15,368 bases of DNA from Candidatus Neomarinimicrobiota bacterium (GTDB lineage Bacteria > Fidelibacterota > UBA2242 > B5-G15), in assembly GCA_017656425.1 (NCBI GenBank), contig JACDNV010000029.1:1-15368 (forward strand), given 5' to 3'. This document shows, in pieces, positions 76 through 15,368 of the stretch. The position numbers and the translations under genes are program-made. The notes beneath the pieces are model-generated. The model worked only from the letters and a program-made list of their open reading frames with translations, was not told the DNA's origin and made no database searches. The stretch's first letter is position 1. Each line of letters starts with the position of its first letter.

Positions 76-696
76 TTGGAAAAAGCGGCAAGCAATGTGG
101 TCTGGCAACCATATACCATTACAAAAGAACATAGACAAAGACTGAATCAGCATAAAAGTTTTGTGCTATGGTTTACGGGTTTACCGGCATCCGGTAAATC
201 CACACTTTCAAATGCTCTGGAATGCAAATTGCACGAAATGGGTATCCGCACGTATTTACTTGACGGCGATAACGTTCGCCAGGGGCTGTGTAAAGACCTG
301 GACTTTTCCGAGGAAGGCCGCCGGGAAAACATAAGGCGCATAGCGGAAGTGGCCAAGCTTTTTGTAGATGCCGGTATCGTAGTGATAGCGGCATTTATTT
401 CGCCTTACAGGGCCGACCGTGAAATGGCCCGGAATTTGTTCGAGCCGGGCGAGTTTATCGAAGTATATGTGAAATGCCCCCTGCACGAGTGCGAGCGCAG
501 GGATCCAAAGGGGTTATACAGAAAGGCGCGGAGTGGAGAAATTAAAAATTTTACTGGAGTAAGTGCACCATACGAGGAGCCACTTCGGCCAGAGATCGTA
601 GTTGAGACACACGTAAATTCAATTACTGAATGCTTACAAAAGATTATTAGTAATTTAGATTTGCAGGAGTTGAAATATTTTGCCGGTAGAAGGTAG
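76..696 (+). CDS. cysC: Adenylylsulfate (APS) kinase CysC
   Basis: Phosphorylates adenosine 5'-phosphosulfate with ATP to give PAPS, the activated sulfate used by sulfotransferases or reduced to sulfite; cytosolic. The 206-residue protein is the normal length for a stand-alone CysC. Visible motifs are the P-loop GLPASGKST (residues 35-43), the APS-binding stretch LDGDNVRQGLCKDLDFS (62-78), FISPYR with Ser109 (107-112, the serine phosphorylated in E. coli CysC) and the lid segment KGLYRKARSGEIKNFTG (145-161). The start is TTG with AGGAG at 60-64. The 3' end overlaps the next gene by 17 bp, suggesting translational coupling. The first 450 bases are clearly richer in GC than the last 160. Lying in a polysaccharide operon rather than beside cysDN, it probably serves glycan sulfonation or sulfation (inference). 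Family call is near certain. Confidence 0.95.
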   Translation: MEKAASNVVWQPYTITKEHRQRLNQHKSFVLWFTGLPASGKSTLSNALECKLHEMGIRTYLLDGDNVRQGLCKDLDFSEEGRRENIRRIAEVAKLFVDAGIVVIAAFISPYRADREMARNLFEPGEFIEVYVKCPLHECERRDPKGLYRKARSGEIKNFTGVSAPYEEPLRPEIVVETHVNSITECLQKIISNLDLQELKYFAGRR

Positions 697-1675
697 ATCC
701 TGGCTAATTACAGGGGGATGCGGTTTTATAGGGACTAACCTTATAGCTGCATTACTTGAAGAAAATCCACTAACAAAAATCCGCGTTTTAGACAATCTTT
801 CTGTAGGCCAAAAGGACGACTTAGCAAAGGTATGTAATGACTTTTTAGAAACTCCGGTTGATGCTATATCAAGTAATCCAAGAGGAGTTGAATTAGTTAT
901 CGGAGATGTCCGCGAGGCCGATTTTGTTTCTAAGACGTGTAAAGGCATAGATATTATTGTTCATCTTGCAGCCAATTCCGGCGTGGCTTCATCTGTAGAA
1001 AACCCGCGTTTAGATTGTGAAGTTAATGTTATTGGAACTCTTAACTTGCTAGAAGCTGCAAGGCATAATAACGTTCAGAAATTTATATTTGCATCAAGCG
1101 GAGCACCATTAGGAGAACAAGAGCCCCCAATACACGAACAAAAAGTACCGCGACCTGTTTCGCCCTATGGTGCAAGCAAGCTGGCCGGAGAAGGGTACTG
1201 CTCTGCCTATTACCGCACCTTTGGCTTATCAACGATAGCATTACGTTTTGGAAATGTTTATGGACCGCGGAGTAAACACAAAAGCAGTGTAGTAGCTAAG
1301 TTTATTCAGCAGGCATTAAGAGGAGAAGTCCTGGAAATATATGGGGATGGGCAGCAAACAAGGGATTTTATTTATATTAAAGATCTTGTTAAGGCGATTC
1401 GACTTGCCGCGGATAGCGATGTTGGTGGAGAAGTATTTCAAATTGCCACTTACCGTGAAACTACGGTTAATGAACTTACTGAGCAACTAACTGCTTTGCT
1501 TAGAAAAAAGTTACCTCAGTTAGACATTAGGGTTAATTATGGTAGTGAACGCTTGGGGGACGTAAAGCGAAATTATTCTGATATATCCAAAGCTCGCAAA
1601 ATTCTTGGTTTTCAGCCTCAGTATGACCTTAGAAAAGGACTGGAAGAAACAATCGACTGGTTTCTAAGCCAATAA
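680..1675 (+). CDS. NAD-dependent nucleotide-sugar epimerase/dehydratase (extended SDR)
   Basis: Extended short-chain dehydrogenase of the UDP-glucose 4-epimerase/dTDP-glucose dehydratase superfamily, 331 residues, cytosolic. It has the NAD motif GGCGFIG (residues 12-18), LAANSGVASSVENP (96-109), the Tyr-x3-Lys pair in SPYGASKLAGE (Tyr163, Lys167), RFGNVYGP (189-196) and GDGQQTRDFIYIKD (222-235). The usual SSxxVYG segment before the Tyr motif reads SSGAPLGEQE (139-148), so Ser139/Ser140 are kept but the following Tyr is lost; this may define a subfamily with a different substrate. Start is TTG 680 with AGGAG at 665-669, inside the end of cysC. It probably supplies a UDP-sugar for the locus glycan, for example by C4 epimerisation; the exact substrate cannot be read from sequence. 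Confidence 0.88.
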   Translation: MPVEGRSWLITGGCGFIGTNLIAALLEENPLTKIRVLDNLSVGQKDDLAKVCNDFLETPVDAISSNPRGVELVIGDVREADFVSKTCKGIDIIVHLAANSGVASSVENPRLDCEVNVIGTLNLLEAARHNNVQKFIFASSGAPLGEQEPPIHEQKVPRPVSPYGASKLAGEGYCSAYYRTFGLSTIALRFGNVYGPRSKHKSSVVAKFIQQALRGEVLEIYGDGQQTRDFIYIKDLVKAIRLAADSDVGGEVFQIATYRETTVNELTEQLTALLRKKLPQLDIRVNYGSERLGDVKRNYSDISKARKILGFQPQYDLRKGLEETIDWFLSQ

Positions 1676-1700
1676 TACATATTGTGAAAGAGTGAGGCTT

Positions 1701-2732
1701 ATGAGTATCTTTGATGGAAAACATGTCCTAGTTACGGGAGCTTCTGGTACAGTAGGCAAGGAATTGGTACGCCAGCTATCGGAGCGATTTTATCCTGCTG
1801 AAATTCGGGCTATTGACAATAATGAGTCGGGATTATTCTTTTTAGACCAAAATTATTATCAGGACCATCGCGTTAGGTGTTTTTTAGGAGATGTTCGAGA
1901 CCGGGATACACTTGTCAATATAATGCAAGGTATTGATATCGTTATCCATACTGCAGCCCTAAAGCATGTGATCTTGTGTGAAAAATCTCCGTGGGATGCT
2001 GTAGAGACTAACATCCTCGGAATTCACAATATCATACAAGCTGCTACATCCTGTGGGGTAGAAAGGGTTTTATTCACTAGTTCAGACAAGGCTGTTAACC
2101 CAACTAATGTAATGGGTACTTCGAAGCTAATGGGAGAACGGCTAATGACGGCTGCCAACGCCAAGAAGTTTGGCGGAAACGGGCCTGTTTTCTTTTCTAC
2201 AAGATTCGGTAATGTTCTTGGGTCACGCGGGTCTGTTATTCCCATTTTTAAGCAGCAGATTGCCAAAGGGGGACCGGTAACACTAACCGATTATCGAATG
2301 ACCCGCTTTATTATGACCTTGTCCGAAGCAGTATCCCTTGTGCTTAAGAGTGTTGAACTTGCGATGGGGGGAGAAGTATTTGTTTCTAAAATGCCGGTTG
2401 TTAAAATAAAGGACTTGGCCGAAATAATGATAGAGATTTTAGCGCCCACATATGGGTATAGACCTTCAGATATAGAAATTATCGAAATCGGGGCCAAGCC
2501 TGGTGAGAAGTTGTACGAAGAGTTAATGAGTTTGGAAGAAACGCGCCGAGCGATGGAGTTGCGAGACATGTTTGTTGTATTGCCAGCATTCAGATCAGTA
2601 TACGAAGACATTAAGTATGACTACAAAGGAATAGTACGTAGCAAGGTTGAACGTCCATACAACTCTAGTACCGAACAACCTATGACAAAGGAAGATTTAA
2701 GAAATTACCTTATCACTCACAAGTTGGTTTAG
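1701..2732 (+). CDS. CapD/WbpM-type nucleotide-sugar 4,6-dehydratase (short form)
   Basis: Soluble polysaccharide-biosynthesis SDR of the CapD/FlaA1/WbpM group; members convert UDP-GlcNAc to UDP-4-keto-6-deoxy sugars. Residues below are numbered from GTG 1692. Motifs are GASGTVG (16-22), LGDVRD (65-70), HTAALKHV (86-93), TSSDKAVNPTNVMGTSK (129-145), STRFGNVLGSRGSVIP (169-184) and the C-terminal GAKPGEKLYEELMS (267-280). The position usually held by the catalytic Tyr is Met141 (Lys145 retained), matching the Ser-Met-Lys arrangement of WbpM-like enzymes rather than the Ser-Tyr-Lys of FlaA1/PseB. There are no membrane segments, unlike full-length WbpM. I take ATG 1701 because family members begin close to FDGKHVLVTG; GTG 1692 is an in-frame alternative, and neither has ideal Shine-Dalgarno spacing. 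It sits 25 bp after the epimerase-like gene. Confidence 0.87.
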   Translation: MSIFDGKHVLVTGASGTVGKELVRQLSERFYPAEIRAIDNNESGLFFLDQNYYQDHRVRCFLGDVRDRDTLVNIMQGIDIVIHTAALKHVILCEKSPWDAVETNILGIHNIIQAATSCGVERVLFTSSDKAVNPTNVMGTSKLMGERLMTAANAKKFGGNGPVFFSTRFGNVLGSRGSVIPIFKQQIAKGGPVTLTDYRMTRFIMTLSEAVSLVLKSVELAMGGEVFVSKMPVVKIKDLAEIMIEILAPTYGYRPSDIEIIEIGAKPGEKLYEELMSLEETRRAMELRDMFVVLPAFRSVYEDIKYDYKGIVRSKVERPYNSSTEQPMTKEDLRNYLITHKLV

Positions 2733-2752
2733 AAACATTAAGGGGTGGATTT

Positions 2753-3901
2753 ATGCGCGTACTTATATTGGGAGTGGACGGTTACTTGGGGTGGCCAACA
2801 GCAATGGCCTTTTCCAAATTGGGGCACGAAGTCTATGGTGTAGATAACTATCTGCGGCGAAATCTTTGCCGCGAGGAAAATGCGGAACCGTTGTTTCCGG
2901 TACCAAACCTTCACGAACGGGTTGAATTATGGAAGATATTAACTGGTAAAAATATTAAAATTCGCATAGGGGACTTGCGAGACTGGAACGTTATAAGTGA
3001 GGTTTTTCAGGAGTTTCAACCCGAGGCCGTAGTACACTATGCCGAACAGCCCTCCGCGCCCTATTCCATGCTGAGACGGGAAGCAGCGATGTTGACTCTG
3101 CAAAACAATTTGACCGTAACAGCCAACCTTATTTACGCCGTAAAAAAAAATTGTCCGGATTGCCATATCATAAAGCTCGGGACGATGGGGGAATATGGTA
3201 CGCCTAATATTGACATCGAGGAAGGCTGGCTGGAAATAGAACATAACGGCCGGCGTGATATATTTTTGTTCCCGCGCCAGGCAAGTTCTCTTTATCATAC
3301 TACTAAGATAATGGATACCGACCTGTTGTGGTTTTATGTCCGCACCTGGGGATTACGGGTAACAGACCTAATGCAGGGCCCTGTCTATGGTCTGTACACG
3401 GATGAATGTAAGGATGACGAACGGCTATGGCCTTTCTTTAATTATGATGAGATCTTTGGAACGGTTCTTAATCGCTTTGTAGTGCAGGCTGTGGCTGGAT
3501 ACCCCCTCACTGTTTATGGAAAAGGCGGCCAAACACGGGGGTACATCAATATCAAAGACACTATCAACTGTGTCCGCTTGTCGATGGAGAATCCTCCTAA
3601 AAAAGGAGAGCTACGAATTTTTAATCAGTTTACTGAGACCTTTACTGTCAACGAGCTTGCGGAGAAAGTTAAGAGAGTGGGCAATGAAATGGGTTTAAAT
3701 GTGCGTATAAGGCATATTGAAAACCCTCGTAAGGAAGCAGAGGAGCATTATTATAATCCTAAGCATACTGGATTACTTGAATTAGGATTGCAGCCCCATT
3801 ATCTGACTGATGAGGTAATTCACGATATGCTAGAAGCGGTTATGGAACACGAGACTCGGATTAATAACTCAAGTATTCTAAGAAACGTACGTTGGGCTTA
3901 G
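2753..3901 (+). CDS. sqdB: UDP-sulfoquinovose synthase-like SDR (SQD1/SqdB family)
   Basis: Homologue of SQD1/SqdB (Agl3 in archaea), which makes UDP-sulfoquinovose from UDP-glucose and sulfite using bound NAD. Recognisable stretches shared with plant SQD1 as I recall it include GVDGYLGW (7-14), EQPSAPYSM (98-106), KLGTMGEYGTPNIDIEEG (141-158), SSLYHTTK (178-185), TVYGKGGQTRGYINIKDT (253-270), NQFTETFTVNELA (291-303) and NPRKEAEEHYYNPKHT (324-339). The catalytic Thr144, Tyr181 and Lys185 are all present, at almost the same numbering as the plant enzyme. Its 382 residues match the family, and no plastid or signal peptide is seen. ATG 2753 has a strong ribosome site, AAGGGGTGG, at 2740-2748. 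APS kinase three genes upstream points to a sulfonated sugar for the locus glycan. The family is secure; that sulfite is the nucleophile in this organism is inference. Confidence 0.92.
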   Translation: MRVLILGVDGYLGWPTAMAFSKLGHEVYGVDNYLRRNLCREENAEPLFPVPNLHERVELWKILTGKNIKIRIGDLRDWNVISEVFQEFQPEAVVHYAEQPSAPYSMLRREAAMLTLQNNLTVTANLIYAVKKNCPDCHIIKLGTMGEYGTPNIDIEEGWLEIEHNGRRDIFLFPRQASSLYHTTKIMDTDLLWFYVRTWGLRVTDLMQGPVYGLYTDECKDDERLWPFFNYDEIFGTVLNRFVVQAVAGYPLTVYGKGGQTRGYINIKDTINCVRLSMENPPKKGELRIFNQFTETFTVNELAEKVKRVGNEMGLNVRIRHIENPRKEAEEHYYNPKHTGLLELGLQPHYLTDEVIHDMLEAVMEHETRINNSSILRNVRWA

Positions 3902-4065: not shown

Positions 4066-5538
4066 ATGGATAAGAATTTTACTTTTGAATTAGTTGCAAG
4101 GTTTGTTGTATTGGGAACAACTACCTTAGTCAGTTTTATTTTAATACCCCTTTTGTCCAAGAACTTAGGTGCTCAAGGGTATGGAGTTTGGACTCAGATT
4201 AGTATTACAAGTAGCTTGATTGCTCCTTTCATAACATTAAAGACAGAAATTGCTACTATTAGATTTGCGAACCGGTATGATCACGCGAGGATGAACTGGA
4301 TCTATATAATACTATCCTTGGGCGTGATATTAAATTGCTTGCTTTTAATTGGTATTTCTCTTTTATTTCTAGATGATATCTGTGGATTTTTGTTTGGGCT
4401 GGAAAGCAAGACGAATTCCCTAGGCATGTTTATTCTCTTTTGGGGTTTTATTATCTCAACTGTAACTAGCCGTTTTTGGGAACACATCCTGAGAGCAAAA
4501 GATAAAAACTTGCACCTTAGCTTGTTACAGACTATACGTGCTTTATTACTTCTGTTATGTAGTTTGTGCTACATTACTATTAAAAATACCTTTATGCTCG
4601 AAGTATTTTTAACTATTAGTATAATACTAAATGTTATAGTTATTATTATTATTTTAACAACAGAACTTACAAAAGGGATTTACAAGTTATCCTGGAACGA
4701 TTCTCTTCAAGAAATTTTTAAACTGGTAAAATATAGCTTTCCTTTAGTTCCATATGCCTTTCTTGTATGGGTTAGCGATGTTTCAGATAGATATATTATT
4801 AATTACTACCTGGGTTTATCCAGTGTTGGGAGTTATGGATTAAATTATAACATTTGTAAATATCTTTCTTTGGCTATCGGTCCAATTACTTTTGTAGTTT
4901 TTCCTAGTGTTTCAAAGTTATGGGATCAAGGGGATTACTCCCGTGTTAGATATTATTTAGATGTATCTCTGAAGCTTTTTACGATTATGACTTTGCCATT
5001 TCTAATGATTTTCTTTGTTTTCTACGATGAGCTAATTACGCTACTTGCCAAACAAGAGTTTGTGGTTTCTTTGTGGACAGTTGCCTTTTTAATGTTAGGA
5101 ACGTATGTATTTAATTTAAGCCAAATTATCAGGATTGGCCCACATCTTATTGAAAAAACTAAAATACTGTCTTATGGCGCAGTTATTAGTGCTTTCCTAA
5201 ATCTGGTATTGAATTTTGCTTTGGTTCCCCAGTTTGGCTTAGGGGGTGCCGCGTTCTCTACCCTGATATGTTATAGCTTATTTACTATTGTTATTCTATA
5301 CATTAATATAAAAAACAATTTGTTTTTTATAATAGATGTAGAATTTTATACCAAGTTTTTCTTTATTTGCTTTGTTTTCTTTTTTATTTCTAAATTTATT
5401 GATTTACATCTTGAACTGGGCTTGTTTCTAAAGCTAGGTTTAGCATTTGGTGTTTTTATTTTAACTTGTTATGTTTTTAGGCTTCTACCTAAAGATACTA
5501 TTAAAGCGGTTAGAGCTATCTATAGGGGAAGGGGTTGA
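4066..5538 (+). CDS. Wzx-type polysaccharide flippase (MOP superfamily)
   Basis: Integral membrane protein of 490 residues with many hydrophobic segments spread along its length (roughly 12-14), as in Wzx/RfbX flippases that move undecaprenyl-diphosphate-linked repeat units across the cytoplasmic membrane. The N terminus (FVVLGTTTLVSFILIPLLSK, residues 12-31), with GAQGYGVWTQ following, is the typical opening of the family. A mid-protein amphipathic segment FPLVPYAFLVWVSDVSDRYI (226-245) and SSVGSYGLNY (252-261) also fit. The gene is strongly AT-rich compared with cysC. ATG 4066 is forced by an upstream in-frame TAA at 4057; its ribosome site is weak (GCGGAATG, 4049-4056). The 164 bp upstream contain no clear terminator or promoter, so it probably continues the operon. 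Substrate cannot be predicted. Confidence 0.88.
   Translation: MDKNFTFELVARFVVLGTTTLVSFILIPLLSKNLGAQGYGVWTQISITSSLIAPFITLKTEIATIRFANRYDHARMNWIYIILSLGVILNCLLLIGISLLFLDDICGFLFGLESKTNSLGMFILFWGFIISTVTSRFWEHILRAKDKNLHLSLLQTIRALLLLLCSLCYITIKNTFMLEVFLTISIILNVIVIIIILTTELTKGIYKLSWNDSLQEIFKLVKYSFPLVPYAFLVWVSDVSDRYIINYYLGLSSVGSYGLNYNICKYLSLAIGPITFVVFPSVSKLWDQGDYSRVRYYLDVSLKLFTIMTLPFLMIFFVFYDELITLLAKQEFVVSLWTVAFLMLGTYVFNLSQIIRIGPHLIEKTKILSYGAVISAFLNLVLNFALVPQFGLGGAAFSTLICYSLFTIVILYINIKNNLFFIIDVEFYTKFFFICFVFFFISKFIDLHLELGLFLKLGLAFGVFILTCYVFRLLPKDTIKAVRAIYRGRG
5524..5534 (+). promoter_or_regulatory. Purine-rich ribosome binding site for the acetyltransferase
   Basis: AGGGGAAGGGG lies in the last codons of the flippase gene, 5 to 8 nt before the TTG codons at 5540 and 5543. 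It supports starting the acetyltransferase there rather than at an upstream ATG inside the flippase gene. Confidence 0.6.
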
Positions 5539-5539
5539 T

Positions 5540-6064
5540 TTGTTGAATTTTCTAAAAAAGATTGCAGTAAAAGTAGTGTTGTCTTTGTACTTAAAATTTG
5601 AAAAAAGTATATGGCGTATTGTAGCAGAAAGTTACAAAACACGCCTTGGTAAATGTGGAAAGAATGTCAAATTTAATGGTAAAATATTTATCAGTCGTCC
5701 TGAATTATTAGAAATAGAAGATAACGTTCATATAGGTCATAACGCAAGTATTTTATCGGGAGGTAAAGTTTATATTGGAGCCAATACTCATATCGGACCT
5801 AATTTGGTTATTTAAAGTGTAAATCATAATTATAACGGTACTAGGCTTCCATATGATGAAGAGAAAATATATAAACCTGTATATATTGGGAAAAATGTTT
5901 GGATTGGGATGAATGTAATTATTGCTCCGGGGAGCATTATTAAAGACGGTGCGATTGTAGGGATGGGAACGGTAGTTTCGGGGGAGGTGCCTCGTTTGGC
6001 TATAATTGGTGCTCAAAAATTTAGAATTCTAAAATATCGAGACAATACCATTATGAATATTTAA
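5540..6064 (+). pseudogene. Hexapeptide-repeat O-acetyltransferase, interrupted by in-frame TAA
   Basis: A left-handed beta-helix acyltransferase of about 174 codons, broken only by a TAA at 5813-5815 (codon 92). Before the stop come a hydrophobic N terminus and isoleucine-rich hexapeptide turns (IEDNVHIGHNASILSGG, 59-75). Directly after it, in the same frame, the coil continues with VNHNYNGTRLPYDEEKI, VYIGKNVWIGMNVIIAPGS and IKDGAIVGMGTVVSGEVP, ending at TAA 6062-6064. The likely catalytic His lies in the VNHNY segment, past the stop, so the 91-residue product should be inactive. There is no frameshift, only one codon. The start is TTG 5540 (or 5543) behind GGGGAAGGGG at 5525-5534, just after the flippase stop. 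It would acetylate a glycan sugar. A sequencing error or readthrough cannot be excluded. Confidence 0.85.
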
Positions 6065-6236: not shown

Positions 6237-7538
6237 TTAAGCCGTCTTCCCCTCAGGAAGAGTAACAATATAACCTTTCTTTGTAAGGAGTTTGATCGCA
6301 GCATCTTCAGGACTTTTTACTTGTTTCTTTTTAAAATAATCTTCGCCAAGCTCATTGTAGGGCGTTTTATTTTTCAACATGTAATAAACAATAATAAGAA
6401 TTTCGTGGGCAGTGGCAACAGCAGCTTTTTTCTTACCATGTTTTCTGGTGATGCGCCAAAACAAGGCGTTTAACCGGGTTCCTCGTTTTTTTGACGCCGC
6501 CCAAGCGCATTGATTTAATGCACTTTTTAATGCTGCATTTCCATAAGTCGTTTTGCTATGTTTCTTTTTACCGGCACTTTCATTATTGCCCGGACTAACA
6601 CCTGCCCATGACGAAATGTGTTTCTCTGATGGAAATACATCCATATTGGTGCCCAATTCCGAGATGATAACAGCGGCAGTATTATCTTTGATTAACGACA
6701 ACGATTTTAATAATTCAACTTCTTCCTGATAAGGAGCTAATGCTTGAGCAATACGACTTTCTAATTCAGCAAGTAGTTGTTCTAAAGCCTCGATATGCTT
6801 CCAGCAAAAGCCAATCATTTCACGATGATGTTGCCGCAGACGGCCATTAAGTGCATCTTGTAATTCAGGAATTTTGTTGCATAATTTTCCTTTAACCAAT
6901 TTTTTTAAATCTTCTACTTCTATCTTTTCGCCATTAATAATGGCCTGCAGCAAGTTTCGGCCCGAAACTCCAAAAATGTCTGACATATATGTCGTCAATT
7001 TAATGTTGGCATCTTGCAGGAATTTATGAATTCGGTTCTTTTCAGCGGTGATATCAGCAATTAATTTTTTCCTGTAACGGGTCATATCCCGCAAATCGCG
7101 AATAGGCTCAGGAGGTACAAAGCTGCTTTCTATCAAACCATTGCGCAGCAACTTTGCTATCCATTCCGCATCTTTGATGTCTGTTTTACGCCCGGGAACA
7201 TTTTTAATCGTACGGGCATTCGCTAAGAGAAGGGTAAATGAACCTTCCAATACATTCCAAACAGGTTTCCAGTAAACAGAGGTGCTTTCCATTGCTACAT
7301 GGGTTACATTATGCTCTGATAAAAAATCTGACAGTTTTAACAAGCCGGATGTTGTTGTTGAAAACGTTTCGATTACTTTTTTAGGACGCCGGTCAAGAGG
7401 GCCAAACAGCACACACGCTACAACGGTTTCTTGGTGTACATCTAATCCGGCACAGCTTTCGTACAGCGCATCACTTTCTGTTTCCATTATCCTGGTTTGT
7501 TTCGACGACTTACGCTTGCGCTTTTTGCTCTCTGGCAT
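6237..7538 (-). CDS. IS110-family DEDD recombinase/transposase
   Basis: Full-length recombinase of 433 residues. The N-terminal RuvC-like domain carries the acidic tetrad Asp33 (GLDVHQETVVAC), Glu84 (VAMESTSVYWKP), Asp120 and Asp123 (GRKTDIKDAEWIAKLL). A coiled middle section follows (about 150-275), then the C-terminal domain with SSWAGVSPGNNESAGKKK (309-326), holding the proposed nucleophilic Ser321. No internal stops or shifts are seen, so it may be active. The start is the ATG read from 7538, with GAGGGG just upstream on the minus strand (about 7546-7551); an open frame extends upstream but overlaps the RNA-like leader. Family members excise as circles and insert using a bridge RNA from the element's non-coding end. 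It is transcribed against the glycan genes. Confidence 0.93.
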   Translation of the reverse strand: MPESKKRKRKSSKQTRIMETESDALYESCAGLDVHQETVVACVLFGPLDRRPKKVIETFSTTTSGLLKLSDFLSEHNVTHVAMESTSVYWKPVWNVLEGSFTLLLANARTIKNVPGRKTDIKDAEWIAKLLRNGLIESSFVPPEPIRDLRDMTRYRKKLIADITAEKNRIHKFLQDANIKLTTYMSDIFGVSGRNLLQAIINGEKIEVEDLKKLVKGKLCNKIPELQDALNGRLRQHHREMIGFCWKHIEALEQLLAELESRIAQALAPYQEEVELLKSLSLIKDNTAAVIISELGTNMDVFPSEKHISSWAGVSPGNNESAGKKKHSKTTYGNAALKSALNQCAWAASKKRGTRLNALFWRITRKHGKKKAAVATAHEILIIVYYMLKNKTPYNELGEDYFKKKQVKSPEDAAIKLLTKKGYIVTLPEGKTA

Positions 7539-7564
7539 GAAAAATCCCCTCAATTCATTAAAAT

Positions 7565-7709
7565 TTAGCAGTGGTACAGCAACCGAAATAAGTGAAATTT
7601 TAATCCGCGTGCTCAAGACACAATCAGTTGTACTTCCAGGTTGCTGCAGTCAGTTTAGATAACAGGGTCAAGCCACCAATAATATCCCGACTTATACGCA
7701 CACTGCTAA
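7565..7709 (-). ncRNA. Candidate IS110 bridge RNA (structured leader)
   Basis: The non-coding stretch just 5' of the recombinase can fold. Read on the minus strand, TTAGCAGTG (7701-7709) pairs perfectly with CACTGCTAA (7565-7573), closing the whole region. Inside it, GCAGCAACC pairs with GGTTGCTGT (8 bp plus a G-U), and the interior holds unpaired loops. In the IS110 subgroup the bridge RNA is encoded in this position and its loops match donor and target DNA. I saw the stems by eye; loop-to-target matches were not established. Confidence 0.6.
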
Positions 7710-7715
7710 CTCTTA
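7706..7715. repeat. 10-bp direct repeat, copy 2 (IS110 left flank)
   Basis: CTAACTCTTA, identical to 6110-6119, at the outer edge of the candidate bridge RNA and overlapping the closing stem. Confidence 0.45.
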
Positions 7716-7720
7716 TTATA
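7715..7720 (-). promoter_or_regulatory. Possible -10 box for IS110 leader/recombinase
   Basis: On the minus strand this reads a perfect TATAAT just upstream of the RNA-like leader. No good -35 hexamer lies 15-18 nt upstream. In IS110 elements a full promoter can form when the ends join in the circle, which would fit, but the box may equally lie just outside the element in an AT-rich flank. Confidence 0.35.
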
Positions 7721-7739
7721 AAATATACCAGGATTTTTC

Positions 7740-7844
7740 ATGCTCGGTTGTGAATTACAAGTTCATGGAAGTTTAGATAAACATAAACAATATGGGGCTG
7801 AAGATGGAAAACCTTATAAGGAGCCATTTGCAAAATTAGTTTAA
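7740..7844 (+). pseudogene. Orphan 34-codon open frame, possible C-terminal gene fragment
   Basis: An ATG frame with protein-like composition (reads GSLDKHKQYGAEDGKPYKEP in its middle) ends at TAA 7842-7844. It has no ribosome site and no room upstream for a gene, since an in-frame TAA lies at 7719 and the IS110 starts there. It looks like the 3' end of a glycan-locus gene cut off by the IS events. I do not recognise the family. Bases 7845-7995 beyond it hold nothing I can support. Confidence 0.3.
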
Positions 7845-7995
7845 ACTTAATGGCAACATAATCAATTACACTTAAATTTCCATTTTTTAAGGGATGCTAC
7901 TATTAAAGATTGAAGATTATGGATTCACTGCATGTAATGCCCAAAAAGAAGGACAGACTACCCCTTCATGTTACGGCTTTCAAAAATTTTACCTG

Positions 7996-8880
7996 TTAAG
8001 CAGCTTCCTGCTTAGCTTTACAGGCAAGCATAGCAGCCGTTCCGGCCAGATAAGCCAACATACACAGGTTGACGTGAAGAATGACCTTGGATAATCCTCT
8101 AACAGTTACCTGACCTAAATTCAGTTTATTTTTAAGGACATTAAGCAGACGCTCTATATGCCACCGCAACTTATACAGCTCTTCCCATCGCTTACTACCG
8201 CGGTGCGGGCTGCTAAATAAACGGGGATTTTTTCGAATACTAACATTGGTTACTTTGCCACAGGCACTTTTACAACCGCATTCCTTGTTGCATATAACGT
8301 TTTTGCCCACGGCCTTAGGACAGCGGAATTTATTTAAAAGCCGCTTTTTATCAGTGCCCCAGTAAACCATGGGATGTTTACCGGGACAAATTGGTGTACC
8401 ATCTTCTGTAAAACCAGCAGGAGGTTTTTTCTGGCCCCGGAGATTCAGTTTCACGATGGCCGGAACCTTTAAATCAAGGGCAGCTTTTTCATATATGAAA
8501 TGGGCATCATACCCTGCATCCATTAGAAAATGGTCCAATTTGCTACCATACAGTTCTTCGTGCATGAGACAAGCTTTCTCCATTATTAACGGAGCAACTT
8601 CCATATCACTTACATTGGCCGGAACTATATACACAGTGGTAGAGGCCCGTCTTCCGTTATGAGAGCCGCAGTATGTACCTTGTAGCCGTAAAAAAATTCA
8701 CTTTCACCTGTAGAGGCGGTACGGTGCCCAAATGCTGCACATTTAGTTGGGAGAGGGTAACAAAGAAACGAGAAAATGTTGATGGATGTGGTAATGGTGA
8801 ACCCAAATTAAATCCTCAAAGCAAGCGTAAAACTATATCCCGACGCAATGCCTGGATTGAGTTACGTTGGCAAGGGGTTT
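7996..8880 (-). pseudogene. Decayed IS4-type DDE transposase, frameshifted
   Basis: The C-terminal 212 codons (8634 down to 7996) are intact. They carry the catalytic Asp in FLMDAGYDA (near 8520), a cysteine-rich stretch (six Cys, residues 83-125 of that segment) and a perfect Y-x2-R-x3-E-x6-K signature in YKLRWHIERLLNVLK (8131-8175), typical of IS4-group transposases. Upstream on the minus strand the protein continues in a shifted frame, FGHRTASTGESEFF then YGYKVHTAALITEDGPLPL, so a base was lost near 8635. A third frame holds an N-terminal-domain-like GFNLGSPLPHPSTFSRF (8765-8815), preceded by a TGA. The segment with the first catalytic Asp is not visible. The element is therefore dead. Confidence 0.8.
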
Positions 8881-9267: not shown

Positions 9268-9387
9268 AGATTTCCATGGAATGGGGTGAAACCCTTTTTC
9301 TATAAGCTACAAGCGTTAGTTTTTAAGGGCTTTTAATTTTGCAATTTGCTCTTATAAGGGCTAGGTAATGAGGTGAAGCAGGATATT

Positions 9388-10341
9388 ATGAAATTGATAG
9401 TTAGTGTCAGTATTAAAGATCAAAAATTTTTGAATGACAAGACTTTTCATATAAGAGGCGAGGTTCGTATTCTAAATATTGGCGAATTAATTCGTGAGAT
9501 TGATCGCATTCCAATTAAAGAATCAAATTCAGTAGTAATGAAAGGGCATCACAAGCTAAACGGGGGAGTGATTATTGGAAGTAAGTATCTATGCACGACG
9601 TATGGTCAAGTGCTTACCGTAGATTTAAACACTCGCAAACAAGAAACCGTATTGTCAGAACCTTTCTTTAACGATTTACATCATGTTAGTTATGCAAATG
9701 ATGAATATGCAGTTGTAAATACTGGGCTTGAACAATTACTTATTTACGACTGCCGCTTTAACCTCAAACGGATTTACAATCTGTTAGATGATATTAACGT
9801 AAATCGAACATTTGACTTGAGTTTGGATTACCGTCACGTATGGTCAACCAAACCTCATTATGTTCATCCTAATTACTGCTTTTATTACGATGGGGAATGG
9901 TGGGTAACGCGATTTTTGCAAAAAGATGCGATTGGAATAGATTCTAAGCGACGTATTAGTTTGGAATCCTATGGTAATCCTCACGACGGATTAGTAATGG
10001 ATGATTGTGTTTATTTTACTACGACAAATGGTTGGGTAGTTAAATATAATTTTAAAACTCGCACGTATGACTCTTGGAACCTAAACGAATTAGTGGGGCG
10101 AGATCAACTGGGGTGGTGTCGTGGTCTTGCTGTAATAGGTGATAAAGCATATGTGTGCTTTACTAAATTTCGTTCAAGTAGAGCTAAAGAGATGGTTAAA
10201 TGGATAATAGATGCGTCAATTAGAGAAGCGCTACCAAGTCGTATATTGGAAGTGGACCTTAAAAGGAATAAAATAACGAGGGAAATAAGTTTTCAGGAAA
10301 AAGATTTGACTTTATTTAGCCTTACATACATATCTAATTAG
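9388..10341 (+). CDS. Unrecognised beta-propeller-like protein of the glycan locus
   Basis: About 317 residues, predicted cytosolic: no signal peptide or membrane segment. I do not recognise the family. It has repeated units of hydrophobic beta strands in the pattern His/Gly, hydrophobic run, Gly/Asp, then Tyr-x-(Val/Thr)-x-Thr and a closing Asp. Examples, in order, are GGVIIGSKYLCTTYGQVLTVD, DEYAVVNTGLEQLLIYD, HPNYCFYYDGEWWVTRF, HDGLVMDDCVYFTTTNGWVV and RGLAVIGDKAYVCFTK. Five or six such units suggest a beta-propeller. ATG 9388 is preferred because GAGGTGA (9370-9376) sits 11 nt upstream; a GTG at 9373 lies within that site. It is the first gene after the IS cluster and leads the run of transferases. 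It could bind or modify a sugar precursor or regulate assembly; nothing shows which. Confidence 0.75.
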   Translation: MKLIVSVSIKDQKFLNDKTFHIRGEVRILNIGELIREIDRIPIKESNSVVMKGHHKLNGGVIIGSKYLCTTYGQVLTVDLNTRKQETVLSEPFFNDLHHVSYANDEYAVVNTGLEQLLIYDCRFNLKRIYNLLDDINVNRTFDLSLDYRHVWSTKPHYVHPNYCFYYDGEWWVTRFLQKDAIGIDSKRRISLESYGNPHDGLVMDDCVYFTTTNGWVVKYNFKTRTYDSWNLNELVGRDQLGWCRGLAVIGDKAYVCFTKFRSSRAKEMVKWIIDASIREALPSRILEVDLKRNKITREISFQEKDLTLFSLTYISN

Positions 10342-10407
10342 GGCTTAAAGCTGGTATCTTAAATCAACGTAGAAAGTTTATATCAGAACTAAGGGAGTTA
10401 AGGGTAA

Positions 10408-11316
10408 ATGCAAAATGCCCCTCTGGTTTCTGTCATTGTTCCGACGTACAACTCAAAATCAGAAGAACTTGAACGTACTATCAATAGCATTCTAAACCAA
10501 GATTACACTAACATTGAAATAATAGTTGTTGATGATGGGTCACGCAATCCTTTTTCCGGGATTAAAGACAGATTCAAAATTGAAAGGAGAATACAATGGT
10601 TAGAAATGTCCGAAAATATGGGAGTTGCAGTAGCTAGAAACGCTGGGATTCAACAAGCGTCGGGAGATTATATAGCCTTTTTAGATGCGGGAGATTGGTG
10701 GGAACCTAATAAAATCCGTTTGCAAGTAAAACTATTTGAATCCTTGTCCAGTGATTATGGGTTAGTCTACTGTGGAGCATTTGTACATAATCCAAATGGG
10801 ATGGTGTACAAATCATTCCCTAAATTTTCAGGGAACATCTATAAACATCTACTTGTGAGTCAGGTAATTACTGGTTCGTGTTCTTCGGTATTAATGCCTC
10901 GACACGTACTAGATAAAGTAGGGGATTTTTTTGAACAATACGACCTGCCGGAGGATAGAGAACTGTGGATGAGGATTTCAAAGAATTACGAAGTATCATA
11001 TGTTAATCAATGTTTAGTCCATTTGAATGTCTGCCCATGCAGTCGTAGCACTAATCCTGAAGTAAAGTCTATAACATATCGACGCCTCTTGAGATTATAT
11101 GAAAAGGATCTTATTAAATATGGTGTTAAGAGTAAAGCTTGGGCACATTGCAAACTTGTAATAGGACAAAAGTACTTAAGAAAAAGAAACATTATTAAAG
11201 CATTTACTTATTTTGCAGATGCGTTATTTACACATCCATCGATTCACGTGACTAAAGGGCTAATAATTTCCTTATTCCCTTTTATTCTTAGGCTAAAGCA
11301 CTTGCGTTTAAAATAG
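10408..11316 (+). CDS. Family 2 glycosyltransferase
   Basis: GT-A fold glycosyltransferase of 302 residues that would add a sugar from a nucleotide donor to the lipid-linked repeat unit at the inner membrane face. It opens with VSVIVPTYNS (7-16), has VVDDGS (40-45), NMGVAVARNAGI (70-81), FLDAGDWWEP (91-100) and the likely catalytic-base region LPEDRELWMRI (180-190, Glu182/Asp183). The DXD position reads Asp93-Ala-Gly95-Asp96, so the second metal-binding Asp of the usual DxDD pattern is Gly. The C terminus is basic with a hydrophobic patch that may touch the membrane. ATG 10408 follows AAGGGAG at 10391-10397. Donor and acceptor are unknown. Confidence 0.93.
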   Translation: MQNAPLVSVIVPTYNSKSEELERTINSILNQDYTNIEIIVVDDGSRNPFSGIKDRFKIERRIQWLEMSENMGVAVARNAGIQQASGDYIAFLDAGDWWEPNKIRLQVKLFESLSSDYGLVYCGAFVHNPNGMVYKSFPKFSGNIYKHLLVSQVITGSCSSVLMPRHVLDKVGDFFEQYDLPEDRELWMRISKNYEVSYVNQCLVHLNVCPCSRSTNPEVKSITYRRLLRLYEKDLIKYGVKSKAWAHCKLVIGQKYLRKRNIIKAFTYFADALFTHPSIHVTKGLIISLFPFILRLKHLRLK

Positions 11317-11373: not shown

Positions 11374-12624
11374 ATGCGTTTAACAGGCATTTTTAAACCA
11401 ATGCTATTGCTAGTAATAGTTATTTGTTTTATTTTCAACTCGAAAGAGTCCTATTCCTTTGTAATTGGAGGATTAACTATTACATATGATGATATTGTTA
11501 TATTCATTATTTTTTTGTTAGTTATATTGCAAAAGTTATTAAAAGGAGGAAAGTTTGGTTGTGACAATACACTATGTATAAATTTTATATTTTTTGGATT
11601 GATAATGGTTAGTACTTTATTGACCATGTTTGTATCAAATAATCCTTTTGGAGATATAAAGCAGATTATTAGCATCTTTGAATATGCTATAGTATTTTGG
11701 CTGGGCTATACTTTAAATCTTGACTTGAAATCGCAGGAAATAAGTTTCAAGATCATAACGTTAGTCGGGAGTTTTATTGCACTAACATCAATACTCCTAG
11801 CTACTGGTTTTCTCGATATTCATCTTGGTGATGTTAGGGCACCTCGTGTAAGCATTTTAAAATATAGAGCAATTGGTTGGTTAGAGATTTATGGTTCATT
11901 TGGTGTTTGGATGCAGATTTGTTTGGGTATTATTCTTGCTTCTTTAATGCAACCTTTATTTAAAAAAGCCTATAATTATATAATTCTTCTTGTACTTTTA
12001 AGCGGCGTATTTGTTTCGCAATCGCGGGCGACATGGCTAACTACTTTCTTGGTTTTATCTGTTTTTCTTATAATGCTATTATATTTTAAATTAAGAAAAC
12101 TAAAGTTCGGCGCACTAATAGGAGGCATTGCATCTATTGGCATAGTTGTTGTAGTATACTTAAGTTTTTGGCAATTTATTTTAGATTTATTTGAATATCT
12201 AATAAAAATAAAACCATTAAGTTATGTAAGCCGATTGAATCAATATGTTTTAGCGATTAGCATTATTAAAGATCAACCTCTTTTGGGTCTAGGCGCTGAT
12301 GTTTTCAGTCAAATAAGTGCCGATGGTTCGGTTTTGCATAATACCTTTTTGGATATTTACGTGCGTTCTGGTTTGATAGGATTTGTTGGATATGTTAGTA
12401 TCTGGATGTTACCTTTTTTTGCGTTAATAAGAACTATGGTAAAACTCAAAGACACTAGGTATAAATTATTTTGCGTTGCGTATTTAATTGGCATTATCGG
12501 AATGTGTATACAGAGCCAATTCTATTTAGCAGATGGGTTTCTTTTGATATGGTTTTTTTTGGGGATGGCAACTGCCTTTATGAGTTTGCAAGGAGTTAGA
12601 AAGGATGTCTACCTTAATGCATAA
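11374..12624 (+). CDS. Wzy/O-antigen-ligase-like polysaccharide polymerase
   Basis: Polytopic membrane protein of 416 residues with about ten or more hydrophobic segments, of the O-antigen ligase/polymerase (Wzy_C) type. These enzymes join lipid-linked repeat units on the outer face of the membrane. Typical marks are FVSQSRATWLTT (213-224), the PLLGLGADVF segment (302-311) and HNTFLDIYVRSGLIG (322-336), ahead of the last transmembrane helices. An extramembrane loop near residues 265-320 would face outward. The weak ribosome site GGGTGAT (11361-11367) precedes ATG 11374. The gene is very AT-rich, like the flippase. Its 3' end overlaps the next glycosyltransferase by 20 bp, indicating one transcript. 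Polymerase and ligase roles cannot be separated by sequence alone. Confidence 0.87.
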   Translation: MRLTGIFKPMLLLVIVICFIFNSKESYSFVIGGLTITYDDIVIFIIFLLVILQKLLKGGKFGCDNTLCINFIFFGLIMVSTLLTMFVSNNPFGDIKQIISIFEYAIVFWLGYTLNLDLKSQEISFKIITLVGSFIALTSILLATGFLDIHLGDVRAPRVSILKYRAIGWLEIYGSFGVWMQICLGIILASLMQPLFKKAYNYIILLVLLSGVFVSQSRATWLTTFLVLSVFLIMLLYFKLRKLKFGALIGGIASIGIVVVVYLSFWQFILDLFEYLIKIKPLSYVSRLNQYVLAISIIKDQPLLGLGADVFSQISADGSVLHNTFLDIYVRSGLIGFVGYVSIWMLPFFALIRTMVKLKDTRYKLFCVAYLIGIIGMCIQSQFYLADGFLLIWFFLGMATAFMSLQGVRKDVYLNA

Positions 12625-13792
12625 AATTGCAAACGAAAGTATTGAAATCTGCCATATTCAAATGGCCTACTATCCGGGCAGCGAGATGAGAGCGTTTTAT
12701 GAATACACTCAAGCATTGTCTCGGATGGGACATCACGTCTGTGTAATAGCTGCTGGTAAACCTGATGAAGCTACTTTCGAATGTGTAAATGGTGTAGAAG
12801 TTTATAGGATTAAGGTTAGGTCAATATCAAAAAAATCTTTAGAGCCTGTGATATTTTTAAGGAAAGCCATACAGATTTTAAGAGCAGAAGCCAAAAGTAG
12901 GCCGTTTGATGTCATACATACCTATACTTCGTGGGAAATGATACCAATGCCTTTATTAATGTCCTCTGCAGCAAAACGGTTCGTTTTTGATATTAGATCG
13001 AACGCCATTAGTGGTGGACTTTTCACAACAATCGGTAAAGTGTTGCGCAGGATTTCGCGACTTGTTTATGACGCCGTTATAGTACTTGATGATGCGCTAG
13101 GAAAAGATATTTTTGGGAATTGTACGCGATATCATATAGTTCCTTTAGGGGTTGACCTTAACACTTTTAGTCCTGTAGGTATGCGGGACAAAAGACTAGC
13201 AAAAGAACGGTTTGGACTAAACCCCGAAAAGAATACTATAGGTTTTATAAGCAGTCTTTATCCAACTAGGCGTTGTGACAGAGTTTTAGAAACCTATAAG
13301 GTAGTAATGTCTAAAAAACCTGATACTCAAGCACTCATTGTAGGGGATGGCCCTGACTTTAGTAAGTTACAGCATGTTATTAATCACGATAGTATCTTAA
13401 AGAACCGAGTAAAGATGACTGGTAAAGTTCCGATAACTGAAGTACATCACGCTTACCATGCTTGCGATGTTTTTTTGTCATACATTCCAATTAACTCTAT
13501 TTATGATCCACAACCACCACTAAAAACAATAGAAGCATTAGCAAGTGGAGTACCTGTAATAGCAACGGCAACCAGAGGAAATAAGACATTTATTCAAGAT
13601 CAAGTTAACGGATTATTAGCTAATGATAACGTTGAAGATCTAGCATCTAAGTGTTTAACAATATTGTCCAATAAATGCTTAAGACAAGCTCTTATAAAAG
13701 CTGGAATAGAGACTGCAAAGAAGTTTGAGTGGAATAAGATTGTTCGAGATTATCTTCTTCCAATATATCTGGATTTGTTATCTTCTAAGTAA
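12605..13792 (+). CDS. Family 4 glycosyltransferase (GT-B fold)
   Basis: GT-B glycosyltransferase of 395 residues. The N-terminal acceptor domain includes YYPGSEMRAFYEYTQALSRMGH (begins residue 22) and FDVIHTYTSWE (101-111). The C-terminal Glycos_transf_1 domain has VPLGVDLNTFSP (179-190), IVGDGPDFSKL (245-255), VKMTGKVP (269-276), ACDVFLSY (286-293) and LKTIEALASGVPVIATATRG (306-325). In the usual E-x7-E motif the second Glu is Glu310, but the first is replaced: residue 302 is Pro, in YDPQPP. This variation occurs in some active GT4 enzymes. ATG 12605 has AGGAG at 12591-12595, within the end of the wzy-like gene. Donor sugar unknown. Confidence 0.92.
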   Translation: MSTLMHKIANESIEICHIQMAYYPGSEMRAFYEYTQALSRMGHHVCVIAAGKPDEATFECVNGVEVYRIKVRSISKKSLEPVIFLRKAIQILRAEAKSRPFDVIHTYTSWEMIPMPLLMSSAAKRFVFDIRSNAISGGLFTTIGKVLRRISRLVYDAVIVLDDALGKDIFGNCTRYHIVPLGVDLNTFSPVGMRDKRLAKERFGLNPEKNTIGFISSLYPTRRCDRVLETYKVVMSKKPDTQALIVGDGPDFSKLQHVINHDSILKNRVKMTGKVPITEVHHAYHACDVFLSYIPINSIYDPQPPLKTIEALASGVPVIATATRGNKTFIQDQVNGLLANDNVEDLASKCLTILSNKCLRQALIKAGIETAKKFEWNKIVRDYLLPIYLDLLSSK

Positions 13793-13814: not shown

Positions 13815-14954
13815 ATGGTTCCAAAAATTCGAGGGAAAGTTTTACTTATAGCTTCAGTATATACTCATCTCGCTGCATTTCATAAACCATTCATACAATT
13901 ATTAAAAAATAAAGGTTATGAAATCCATACAGCTGCGTCTTCTTCTGAGGGAAGGATTAACGAGATAGAAAGCCTGGGAGTAAAGTGTTGGGACATTCCC
14001 TTTGCTCGGTCACCATATAGCTTAAAAAACTATATGGCTTACTGTAAGTTAAGACAATTATTGATCTGTAACTATTTTAGTTTGATACATGTGCATACTC
14101 CTATGGCCGCGTTCTCAGGTCGGTATCTTGCAAAAGCTACACACCAGGGGCCTGTGTTATATACAGCACATGGCTTTCATTTTTTTAAAGGTGCTTCGAA
14201 ACGTAACTGGTTATTATATTATAATGCTGAGCGTCTGGCTAGTAAATGGACAGATGGTCTAATTGTTATGAACGAAGAGGATTTTGAGGCTGGCAAAAGG
14301 CTTGGTTTTCTTCCTGGTAAGGACTTATTCTTTGTACATGGCGTTGGGGTTGACTTAAATAAATATGGAGAGATAAGATCTTCCTTAACTCTCAAAAAAA
14401 GCCTAGGTATTTCCTCAAGAGACCTAGTTATCAGTTGTGTTGCTGAATTTATACCAAATAAAAACCACGTTTTTCTTCTAAAAGCATGGTCTTATCTTGC
14501 CCAGAAATACAATAATATCCATCTTGTTTTGGTTGGAGATGGTAAGCTGAGGCATATGATTAACAAAGTAATTGACAGAGAAAGACTACAACGTGTTTTC
14601 TTGTTGGGTTTTAGAAACGATGTACCCGAAATACTTGCTGAATCAGATATTGTCACGTTGGTTTCTAAGCGGGAAGGTTTACCAAGATGTATTATGGAAG
14701 CAATGGCATCAAAGAAACCTGTCGTTGCTACAGACGTTAGAGGATCGCGGGATTTGGTTAAACACGGTAAGACCGGGTTTTTAGTTCCTCTTGACGATGT
14801 TAGTGCATTAGTAAAAGCTTTTGAGACTTTAATTAACAATACTGACCTGCGAAATAAGATGGGTCAAGCAGGACGAGAAGTTATCCAGGATTATTCTATC
14901 GACAGGGTTATCGCTGAAATGGAAGAAATATACGATATGTTTCTGCAAAAATGA
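13815..14954 (+). CDS. Family 4 glycosyltransferase (EpsD/CapM-like)
   Basis: GT-B glycosyltransferase of 379 residues, similar in layout to exopolysaccharide/capsule enzymes such as EpsD and CapM. The N-terminal Glyco_trans_4-type domain shows VLLIASVYTHLAAFHKPF (9-26), LIHVHTPMAAFSGRYLAK (90-107) and TAHGFHFFKG (117-126). The C-terminal domain shows HGVGVDLNKY (175-184), LVLVGDGKLR (237-246), ESDIVTLVSKREGLPRC (276-292) with a complete E-x7-E (Glu287, Glu295), and TDVRGSRDLVKHGKTGFLVP (306-325). The ribosome site GAGAGGG (13797-13803) precedes ATG 13815, 22 bp after the previous gene. It probably adds an early sugar, since homologues often follow the initiating transferase. AT-rich like the genes before it. 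Confidence 0.93.
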   Translation: MVPKIRGKVLLIASVYTHLAAFHKPFIQLLKNKGYEIHTAASSSEGRINEIESLGVKCWDIPFARSPYSLKNYMAYCKLRQLLICNYFSLIHVHTPMAAFSGRYLAKATHQGPVLYTAHGFHFFKGASKRNWLLYYNAERLASKWTDGLIVMNEEDFEAGKRLGFLPGKDLFFVHGVGVDLNKYGEIRSSLTLKKSLGISSRDLVISCVAEFIPNKNHVFLLKAWSYLAQKYNNIHLVLVGDGKLRHMINKVIDRERLQRVFLLGFRNDVPEILAESDIVTLVSKREGLPRCIMEAMASKKPVVATDVRGSRDLVKHGKTGFLVPLDDVSALVKAFETLINNTDLRNKMGQAGREVIQDYSIDRVIAEMEEIYDMFLQK

Positions 14955-15230: not shown

Positions 15231-15368
15231 ATGCGGTTAATTGTTAAGCGGGTTATGGATATCGTTGGTGCCTTGGCGGGTCTCGTTGTTGCCTTTCCGC
15301 TTATGCTTTTGACTGCCCTTTTAATCCGGTTAAATATGGGTTCTCCCGTAATTTTTCGCCAGTTGCGT
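15231..15368 (+). CDS. Initiating undecaprenyl-phosphate sugar transferase, N terminus (cut by window edge)
   Basis: Forty-six codons run to the window edge from ATG 15231, with GGTGG at 15217-15221. The sequence has the opening of the bacterial sugar transferase family (WcaJ/WbaP/EpsL, polyprenyl-phosphate hexose-1-phosphate transferases): KRVMDIVGALAGLVVAFPLM, a hydrophobic hairpin, then NMGSPVIFRQLR, the usual GSPVIFRQ-R motif. It begins directly with the re-entrant helix, so it is the short form without the N-terminal multi-span domain. It would start the repeat unit by moving a sugar-phosphate to undecaprenyl phosphate. The catalytic domain lies beyond the window. Confidence 0.9.
   Translation, partial: MRLIVKRVMDIVGALAGLVVAFPLMLLTALLIRLNMGSPVIFRQLR

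Follow-up and report, generated by a model that had tools for sequence, protein, structure and literature searches.

A 2026 review places the synthesis of sulfoquinovose in phototrophs and certain archaea (PMC12890257). The SQD1 protein of Arabidopsis (structures 1i24 and 1qrr), SqdB and Agl3 are the closest described relatives of an SQD1-like protein encoded on contig JACDNV010000029.1, from an assembly assigned to a Candidatus Neomarinimicrobiota bacterium (GCA_017656425.1); the window, that is, the whole stretch of DNA analyzed here, is this entire contig of 15,368 bp. The window protein shares with SQD1, SqdB and Agl3 full-length homology, the nicotinamide adenine dinucleotide (NAD) Rossmann motif, a Thr-Met-Gly-Glu-Tyr plus Tyr-His-x-x-Lys centre and the essential His95, but it has proline in place of Arg101 and phenylalanine in place of a second arginine, and it belongs to a separate clade. 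Its gene also differs in setting, since it lies in a polysaccharide locus and is partnered by a second short-chain dehydrogenase/reductase (SDR), here called SDR2, instead of SqdX or SqdD.

Two described pathways offer partial parallels to this arrangement. In the S-layer N-glycan pathway of Sulfolobus acidocaldarius, Agl3 is likewise an SQD1-family enzyme that serves a surface glycan and not sulfolipid; unlike the window, that pathway belongs to archaeal N-glycosylation, uses an enzyme with the arginine (Arg-type) and has no bacterial Wzx/Wzy locus. In the sulfolipid operon sqdBDC of Sinorhizobium meliloti and Marinovum a glycosyltransferase similarly adjoins the SQD1-family gene, but there the enzyme is Arg-type, its partner is GT8-like, and flippase, SDR2 and Wzy are missing. 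A literature search confined to open-access papers found no description of SQD1-type enzymes in bacterial Wzx/Wzy loci and nothing relevant on sulfoquinovosamine. The analysis below suggests that this cluster makes an undescribed sugar, probably a sulfonated one, which many non-photosynthetic bacteria also produce.

A proline-type branch of the SQD1 family

The gene and the two codons that distinguish its product are placed as follows.
2753..3901, + strand: Pro-type SQD1-like SDR, 51% identical to Arabidopsis SQD1 (NF041015, 475 bits)
3050..3052, + strand: Pro100 codon, at the Arg101 site of SQD1/Agl3
3434..3436, + strand: Phe228 codon, the second class-specific loss of arginine

The protein is full length and matches the SQD1 crystal structures with an E-value of 2e-137; because it is 51% identical to a protein of solved structure, its predicted SQD1 fold is near certain. 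It keeps His95, Thr144, Met145, Glu147, Tyr148, Tyr181 and Lys185. A first-pass annotation of this DNA, made from the sequence alone, had therefore read the Thr144/Tyr181/Lys185 triad correctly, but it overlooked that the motif EQ-R-[SA]APYS, common to SQD1, SqdB and Agl3, is EQ-P-SAPYS here, with Pro100 at the site of Arg101. The Arg101Ala mutant of Agl3, for which the mutagenic primer encodes AEQ[R>A]SAP, is inactive, as are H95A, M145A, Y182A and K186A (PMC4388408). Among these mutation-tested residues, Arg101 is the sole one altered in the window protein.

When species genomes were scanned with the window protein aligned to its relative from locus L011, at least 471 relatives emerged; the family counts given here cover the best 80 of these, which are 63-76% identical. 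All 80 have proline at the site. Arg101 is kept by plant SQD1, by SqdB of Sinorhizobium, Marinovum and Palleronia, by the Rhodococcus and Pseudonocardia proteins and by an Arg-type gene in locus L070; the bacterial Arg-type proteins compared are only 42-57% identical to plant SQD1, yet they retain it. Arg228 is present in seven of seven Arg-type proteins and is mostly Phe or Asn in the Pro clade, which has gained invariant Arg175, Thr183, Thr189 and Asp190.

A position outside the SQD1/SqdB/Agl3 clade had been named in the first-pass annotation as evidence that would count against it; in our tree the window protein lies inside the SQD1 family (100/100), although in a Pro clade of its own, with the deep forks unresolved. 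The score of 475 bits falls below the NF041015 equivalog cut-off of 575, but this was rejected as proof against family membership, since S. meliloti SqdB, a true SqdB, also falls below it with 332 bits. The identification as a canonical UDP (uridine diphosphate)-sulfoquinovose synthase is not supported, because the arginine whose replacement by alanine inactivates Agl3 is proline here and in all 80 relatives. An intact Thr/Tyr/Lys triad alone is thus insufficient to annotate genes as UDP-sulfoquinovose synthase.

One could still suppose, as the first-pass model did, that the Pro-type enzyme is an ordinary UDP-sulfoquinovose synthase acting on UDP-glucose and sulfite, with another residue replacing Arg101, while SDR2 and a further SDR of the operon (SDR1) provide different sugars for the repeat unit. 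We consider this unlikely. It would fit the 51% identity to plant SQD1, which exceeds that between S. meliloti SqdB and plant SQD1 (43%), the retention of the remaining mutation-tested residues, the gain of invariant Arg175 and the CysH neighbours described below. It fits poorly with the joint loss of two conserved arginines, and it does not explain why a special SDR2 is an almost constant partner. In addition, locus L070 has SQD1-family genes of both types (6350-7558 and 10001-11152), which speaks for different functions of the Arg-type and Pro-type enzymes.

A dedicated dehydratase partner

Two SDR genes stand directly upstream of the SQD1-like gene.
680..1675, + strand: SDR1, a WbpP/GalE-like extended SDR (SSGA..YGASK) of the Epimerase family
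1692..2732, + strand: SDR2, a soluble Met-type (TSSDK..M..K) predicted nucleotide-sugar dehydratase (Polysacc_synt_2, 324 bits)

In 70 of the 80 loci an SDR2 gene is found no more than 3 kb from the Pro-type gene, and in 60 of these the two are less than 300 bp apart. Nine loci are without any SDR2, and in six of their genomes a module-type SDR2 (55-66% identical) is found elsewhere. The pair is present in about 76 of the 80 hosts, several of the remaining ones being represented by short contigs of incomplete metagenome-assembled genomes (MAGs). Distances among the SQD1-like proteins and among the SDR2 proteins are correlated (r 0.41, p<=0.0005; 72 loci). The conserved unit, or module, is the Pro-type enzyme with its dedicated SDR2, not cysC with SQD1. 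The first-pass annotation had treated SDR2 as a mere background gene and missed its methionine in place of the SDR tyrosine; it is instead a conserved partner.

This enzyme is short and soluble, and it has TSSDK..M..K or TSTDK..M..K in 72 of 72 relatives, a centre that satisfies the dehydratase pattern ([ST]DK with Yx3K or Mx3K). The same Met-for-Tyr arrangement occurs in WbpM/PglF (PMC8987622). Its closest solved relative is Pen (6bwc), the UDP-N-acetylglucosamine (UDP-GlcNAc) 5,6-dehydratase of Bacillus thuringiensis. Like Pen, FlaA1/PseB and WbpM/PglF, it belongs to the Polysacc_synt_2 family and has the Asp-Lys pair; unlike them, it is short and soluble and forms a subfamily of its own that accompanies the Pro-type enzyme. 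Module SDR2 proteins group apart from WbpM-type and CapE-type paralogues in a tree, and eight loci carry a WbpM-type or CapE-type dehydratase besides the module SDR2.

SDR1 accompanies the SQD1-like gene in 30 of the 80 loci. Most of its 33 relatives retain SSGA..Y..K, and by this motif it is a probable 4-epimerase or reductase. The nearest module relative of the window, L016 from a Bacillota MAG, has the identical order SDR1-SDR2-SQD-Wzx.

Sulfur genes beside the module

The first gene of the window belongs to sulfate activation.
76..696, + strand: cysC, adenosine 5'-phosphosulfate kinase, with a TTG start (APS_kinase PF01583, 235 bits; TIGR00455, 275 bits)

CysC produces 3'-phosphoadenosine 5'-phosphosulfate (PAPS) and not sulfite, for which CysH is then needed. 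The first-pass annotation placed cysC in its predicted sulfonation operon and proposed the co-occurrence of cysC and SQD1-like genes as a check, but a role of cysC as supplier of sulfite is not supported; among the 80 related loci cysC is within 3 kb in only three, once beside a sulfotransferase, so that it is an accessory gene in this family and was rejected as a conserved partner. Neither the window nor its assembly has a CysH (a weak assembly match is MnmA), and a CysC-CysH operon for sulfite supply is thus not seen here. A sulfonation operon in which cysC and the SQD1-like gene belong together, with CysC as the key supplier of sulfite, is very improbable. The gene does precede the module in L025 and L089 also, and cysD-cysNC lies directly upstream of the SQD1-like gene in L063, but this reading has to contend with the product of CysC, the missing PAPS reductase and the rarity of the gene, and the sulfate-reducer hosts have AprA, so that they do not need CysC to obtain sulfite. 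We read cysC as an accessory gene whose PAPS would go into O-sulfation or, if a CysH is encoded outside the contig, into sulfite.

CysH itself adjoins the module (within 3 kb) in four loci of three lineages, namely L032 (Motilimonas), L088 (Anaerolineae) and L068 and L069 (Rhodobacterales), and it is absent from 729 kb of farther flank around family loci. When cysC and cysH neighbours are taken together, seven of eight lie within 3 kb, where 37% would be expected from that share of the flank (p 0.005, or 0.012 with the two Rhodobacterales counted as one). The module-adjacent CysH proteins bear the CC...GCxxCT...ECGxH signature, and three of the three scanned pass the NCBI cut-off for phosphoadenylyl-sulfate reductase. 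In L032, L068 and L069 the module CysH is an extra copy, another PAPS_reduct gene being present elsewhere in the genome.

The Anaerolineae genome (G265) is different, as the sole CysH of its 7.3 Mb lies in this operon, within a same-strand cluster that is a surface-polysaccharide locus. ATP sulfurylase is present, and a search of the genome for sulfite reductase or AprA found neither. A CysH in the operon of a genome in which these enzymes were not found is the best single argument for the use of sulfite by the module, and we know of no role in O-sulfation for the sulfite-making CysH. The use of sulfite by the module remains the favoured reading. The sulfonated surface-glycan sugar of the first-pass annotation is a fair prediction, given the SQD1/SqdB kinship, the glycan locus and, above all, the CysH genes that flank the module in unrelated genomes; a canonical sulfoquinovose synthase fed by cysC is not supported.

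A candidate two-enzyme route to a sulfonated sugar

The explanation that we tentatively favour, at somewhat less than an even chance, is a variant pathway in which SDR2 and the Pro-type SQD1 paralogue build a C6-sulfonated UDP-sugar for a surface polysaccharide exported by Wzx/Wzy. By kinship, SDR2 would oxidize C4 of a UDP-sugar (UDP-GlcNAc or a relative) and then remove water across C5-C6. The Pro-type enzyme would take this intermediate, regenerate the 4-keto-5,6-ene, add sulfite at C6 and reduce C4, yielding the C6-sulfonated UDP-sugar; SDR1 may subsequently epimerize or reduce C4, and the activated sugar would enter the exported polysaccharide. In the absence of sulfite, the product of Agl3 is UDP-glucose-5,6-ene (PMC4388408). 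If the Pro-type enzyme lacks the arginine for 5,6-ene chemistry, a separate dehydratase resembling Pen or WbpM would naturally complement it, and a pathway split in this manner would account at once for the SDR2 pairing, the missing arginine and the nearby CysH genes. The operon, the homology, the arginine loss, the SDR2 pairing, the separate clade and the CysH genes beside the module are observed, whereas sulfite use by the window protein, its substrate, the sequence of steps and the resulting sugar are inferred; this sugar may also be plain UDP-sulfoquinovose.

The broader proposal, that a Met-type dehydratase and a Pro-type SQD1 paralogue together make a new UDP-sugar, sulfonated at C6 and probably N-acetylated, by a widespread route that serves the surface glycans of sulfate reducers and further non-photosynthetic bacteria in many phyla, is rather doubtful. 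If it is true, an SQD1-type reaction can be divided between two SDR enzymes, and the Pro-type clade, whose hundreds of members occur in sulfate reducers, anammox Planctomycetota and other groups, represents an added source of sulfonated, acid-stable anionic glycan.

Several points weigh against a sulfonating pathway. To our knowledge, there is no activity or structure for any Pro-type member, and most loci contain no sulfur gene. The inactivity of Agl3 R101A may mean that sulfonation was lost along with the arginine, not that a new substrate was acquired, and SDR2, which has the 4,6-dehydratase Asp-Lys pair with methionine, could form an ordinary 4-keto-6-deoxy sugar with no reactive C6 for sulfite. 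The window's assembly has neither CysH nor AprA nor a sulfite reductase, but the contig may not be a true part of it.

Such points would suit a Pro-type enzyme that does not sulfonate at all and instead helps SDR1 and SDR2 to make a rare deoxy- or amino-sugar, as an epimerase, dehydratase or reductase, the nearby sulfur genes serving O-sulfation of the same glycan. Also consistent with this idea are L089, in which the order cysC-SDR2-SQD is followed by a sulfotransferase, so that sulfur genes flank the module on both sides, and the Sat-CysC and sulfotransferases of the window's CysH-less assembly. Against it, three lineages have CysH next to the module, G265 has no other CysH than this one, and the SQD1-specific centre (T-M-G-E-Y..Y-H-x-x-K) is otherwise retained; we regard the idea as improbable.

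Spread of the Pro-type family

Hosts of the 80 relatives include sulfate reducers, alpha- and gammaproteobacteria, Nitrospirota, Chloroflexota, the anammox bacterium Jettenia (Planctomycetota), Actinomycetota and a Bacillota MAG. A search of phage GenBank records found no relative of the SQD1-like protein, and plasmid records yielded relatives only at about 52% identity or less. On a haloarchaeal plasmid (Natrinema; L099:4001-7170), two further SDR genes come after a divergent SQD1-like gene of the Pro type, perhaps a parallel three-SDR arrangement. Distant SQD1-like genes of this type (41-42%) also occur on four IMG/VR contigs (L006, L007, L008 and L009), the one in L006 lying directly downstream of a deoxycytidine monophosphate (dCMP) deaminase-like gene.

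The glycan locus and its contig

The first-pass description of cysC, the two SDR genes and the SQD1-like gene as tightly spaced on the + strand before wzx was confirmed, the spacings from cysC through SDR1, SDR2 and the SQD1-like gene to wzx being -17, +16, +20 and +164 bp. The glycosyltransferases, Wzy-like protein and initiating transferase that it placed downstream were also recovered; it did not notice that the locus is interrupted or that the window is a whole contig. The remaining features are as follows.
4066..5538, + strand: Wzx-like flippase (Polysacc_synt PF01943)
6237-8634, - strand: IS110-family gene and DDE transposase gene, dividing the glycan locus in two
10408..11316, + strand: family 2 glycosyltransferase (PF00535)
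11374..12624, + strand: Wzy-like polymerase/ligase (Wzy_C PF04932)
12605..13792, + strand: family 4 glycosyltransferase (PF00534)
13815..14954, + strand: family 4 glycosyltransferase (PF00534)
15231..15368, + strand: 5' part of an initiating sugar transferase, truncated by the contig end (Bac_transf PF02397, first 46 aa, 35.7 bits)

The window thus contains the flippase, polymerase, glycosyltransferases and initiating transferase of a Wzx/Wzy locus, the last judged from 46 aa only. The locus is split by the transposase genes and by a hexapeptide acetyltransferase frame (5471-6050) with an in-frame stop after ...HIGPNLVI, beyond which the same frame resumes (SVNHNYNGTRLPYD...); gene decay or a sequencing error is the probable cause. 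A 322-aa protein (9373-10341) with the look of a beta-propeller matches DUF4915 (PF16261) only below threshold.

In tetranucleotide composition the contig stands apart from its MAG (r 0.29-0.40 versus 0.53-0.85 for 15 other stretches), and its guanine-plus-cytosine content is 38% versus mostly 30-36% in the assembly. The IS110 gene is present in a single copy in the assembly, and its best plasmid relative (58.6%) is in Peribacillus. The contig is either mis-binned or recently imported, so nothing is drawn from the metabolism of the assembly, and an argument from its missing CysH, AprA and sulfite reductase was dropped. Elsewhere in the assembly (L012:8412-12198), the Sat-CysC fusion adjoins an SLC13-type permease-like gene, with Wzz/kinase-like and DegT-type aminotransferase-like genes nearby, and this region reads as a second glycan locus, whose product is probably O-sulfated.

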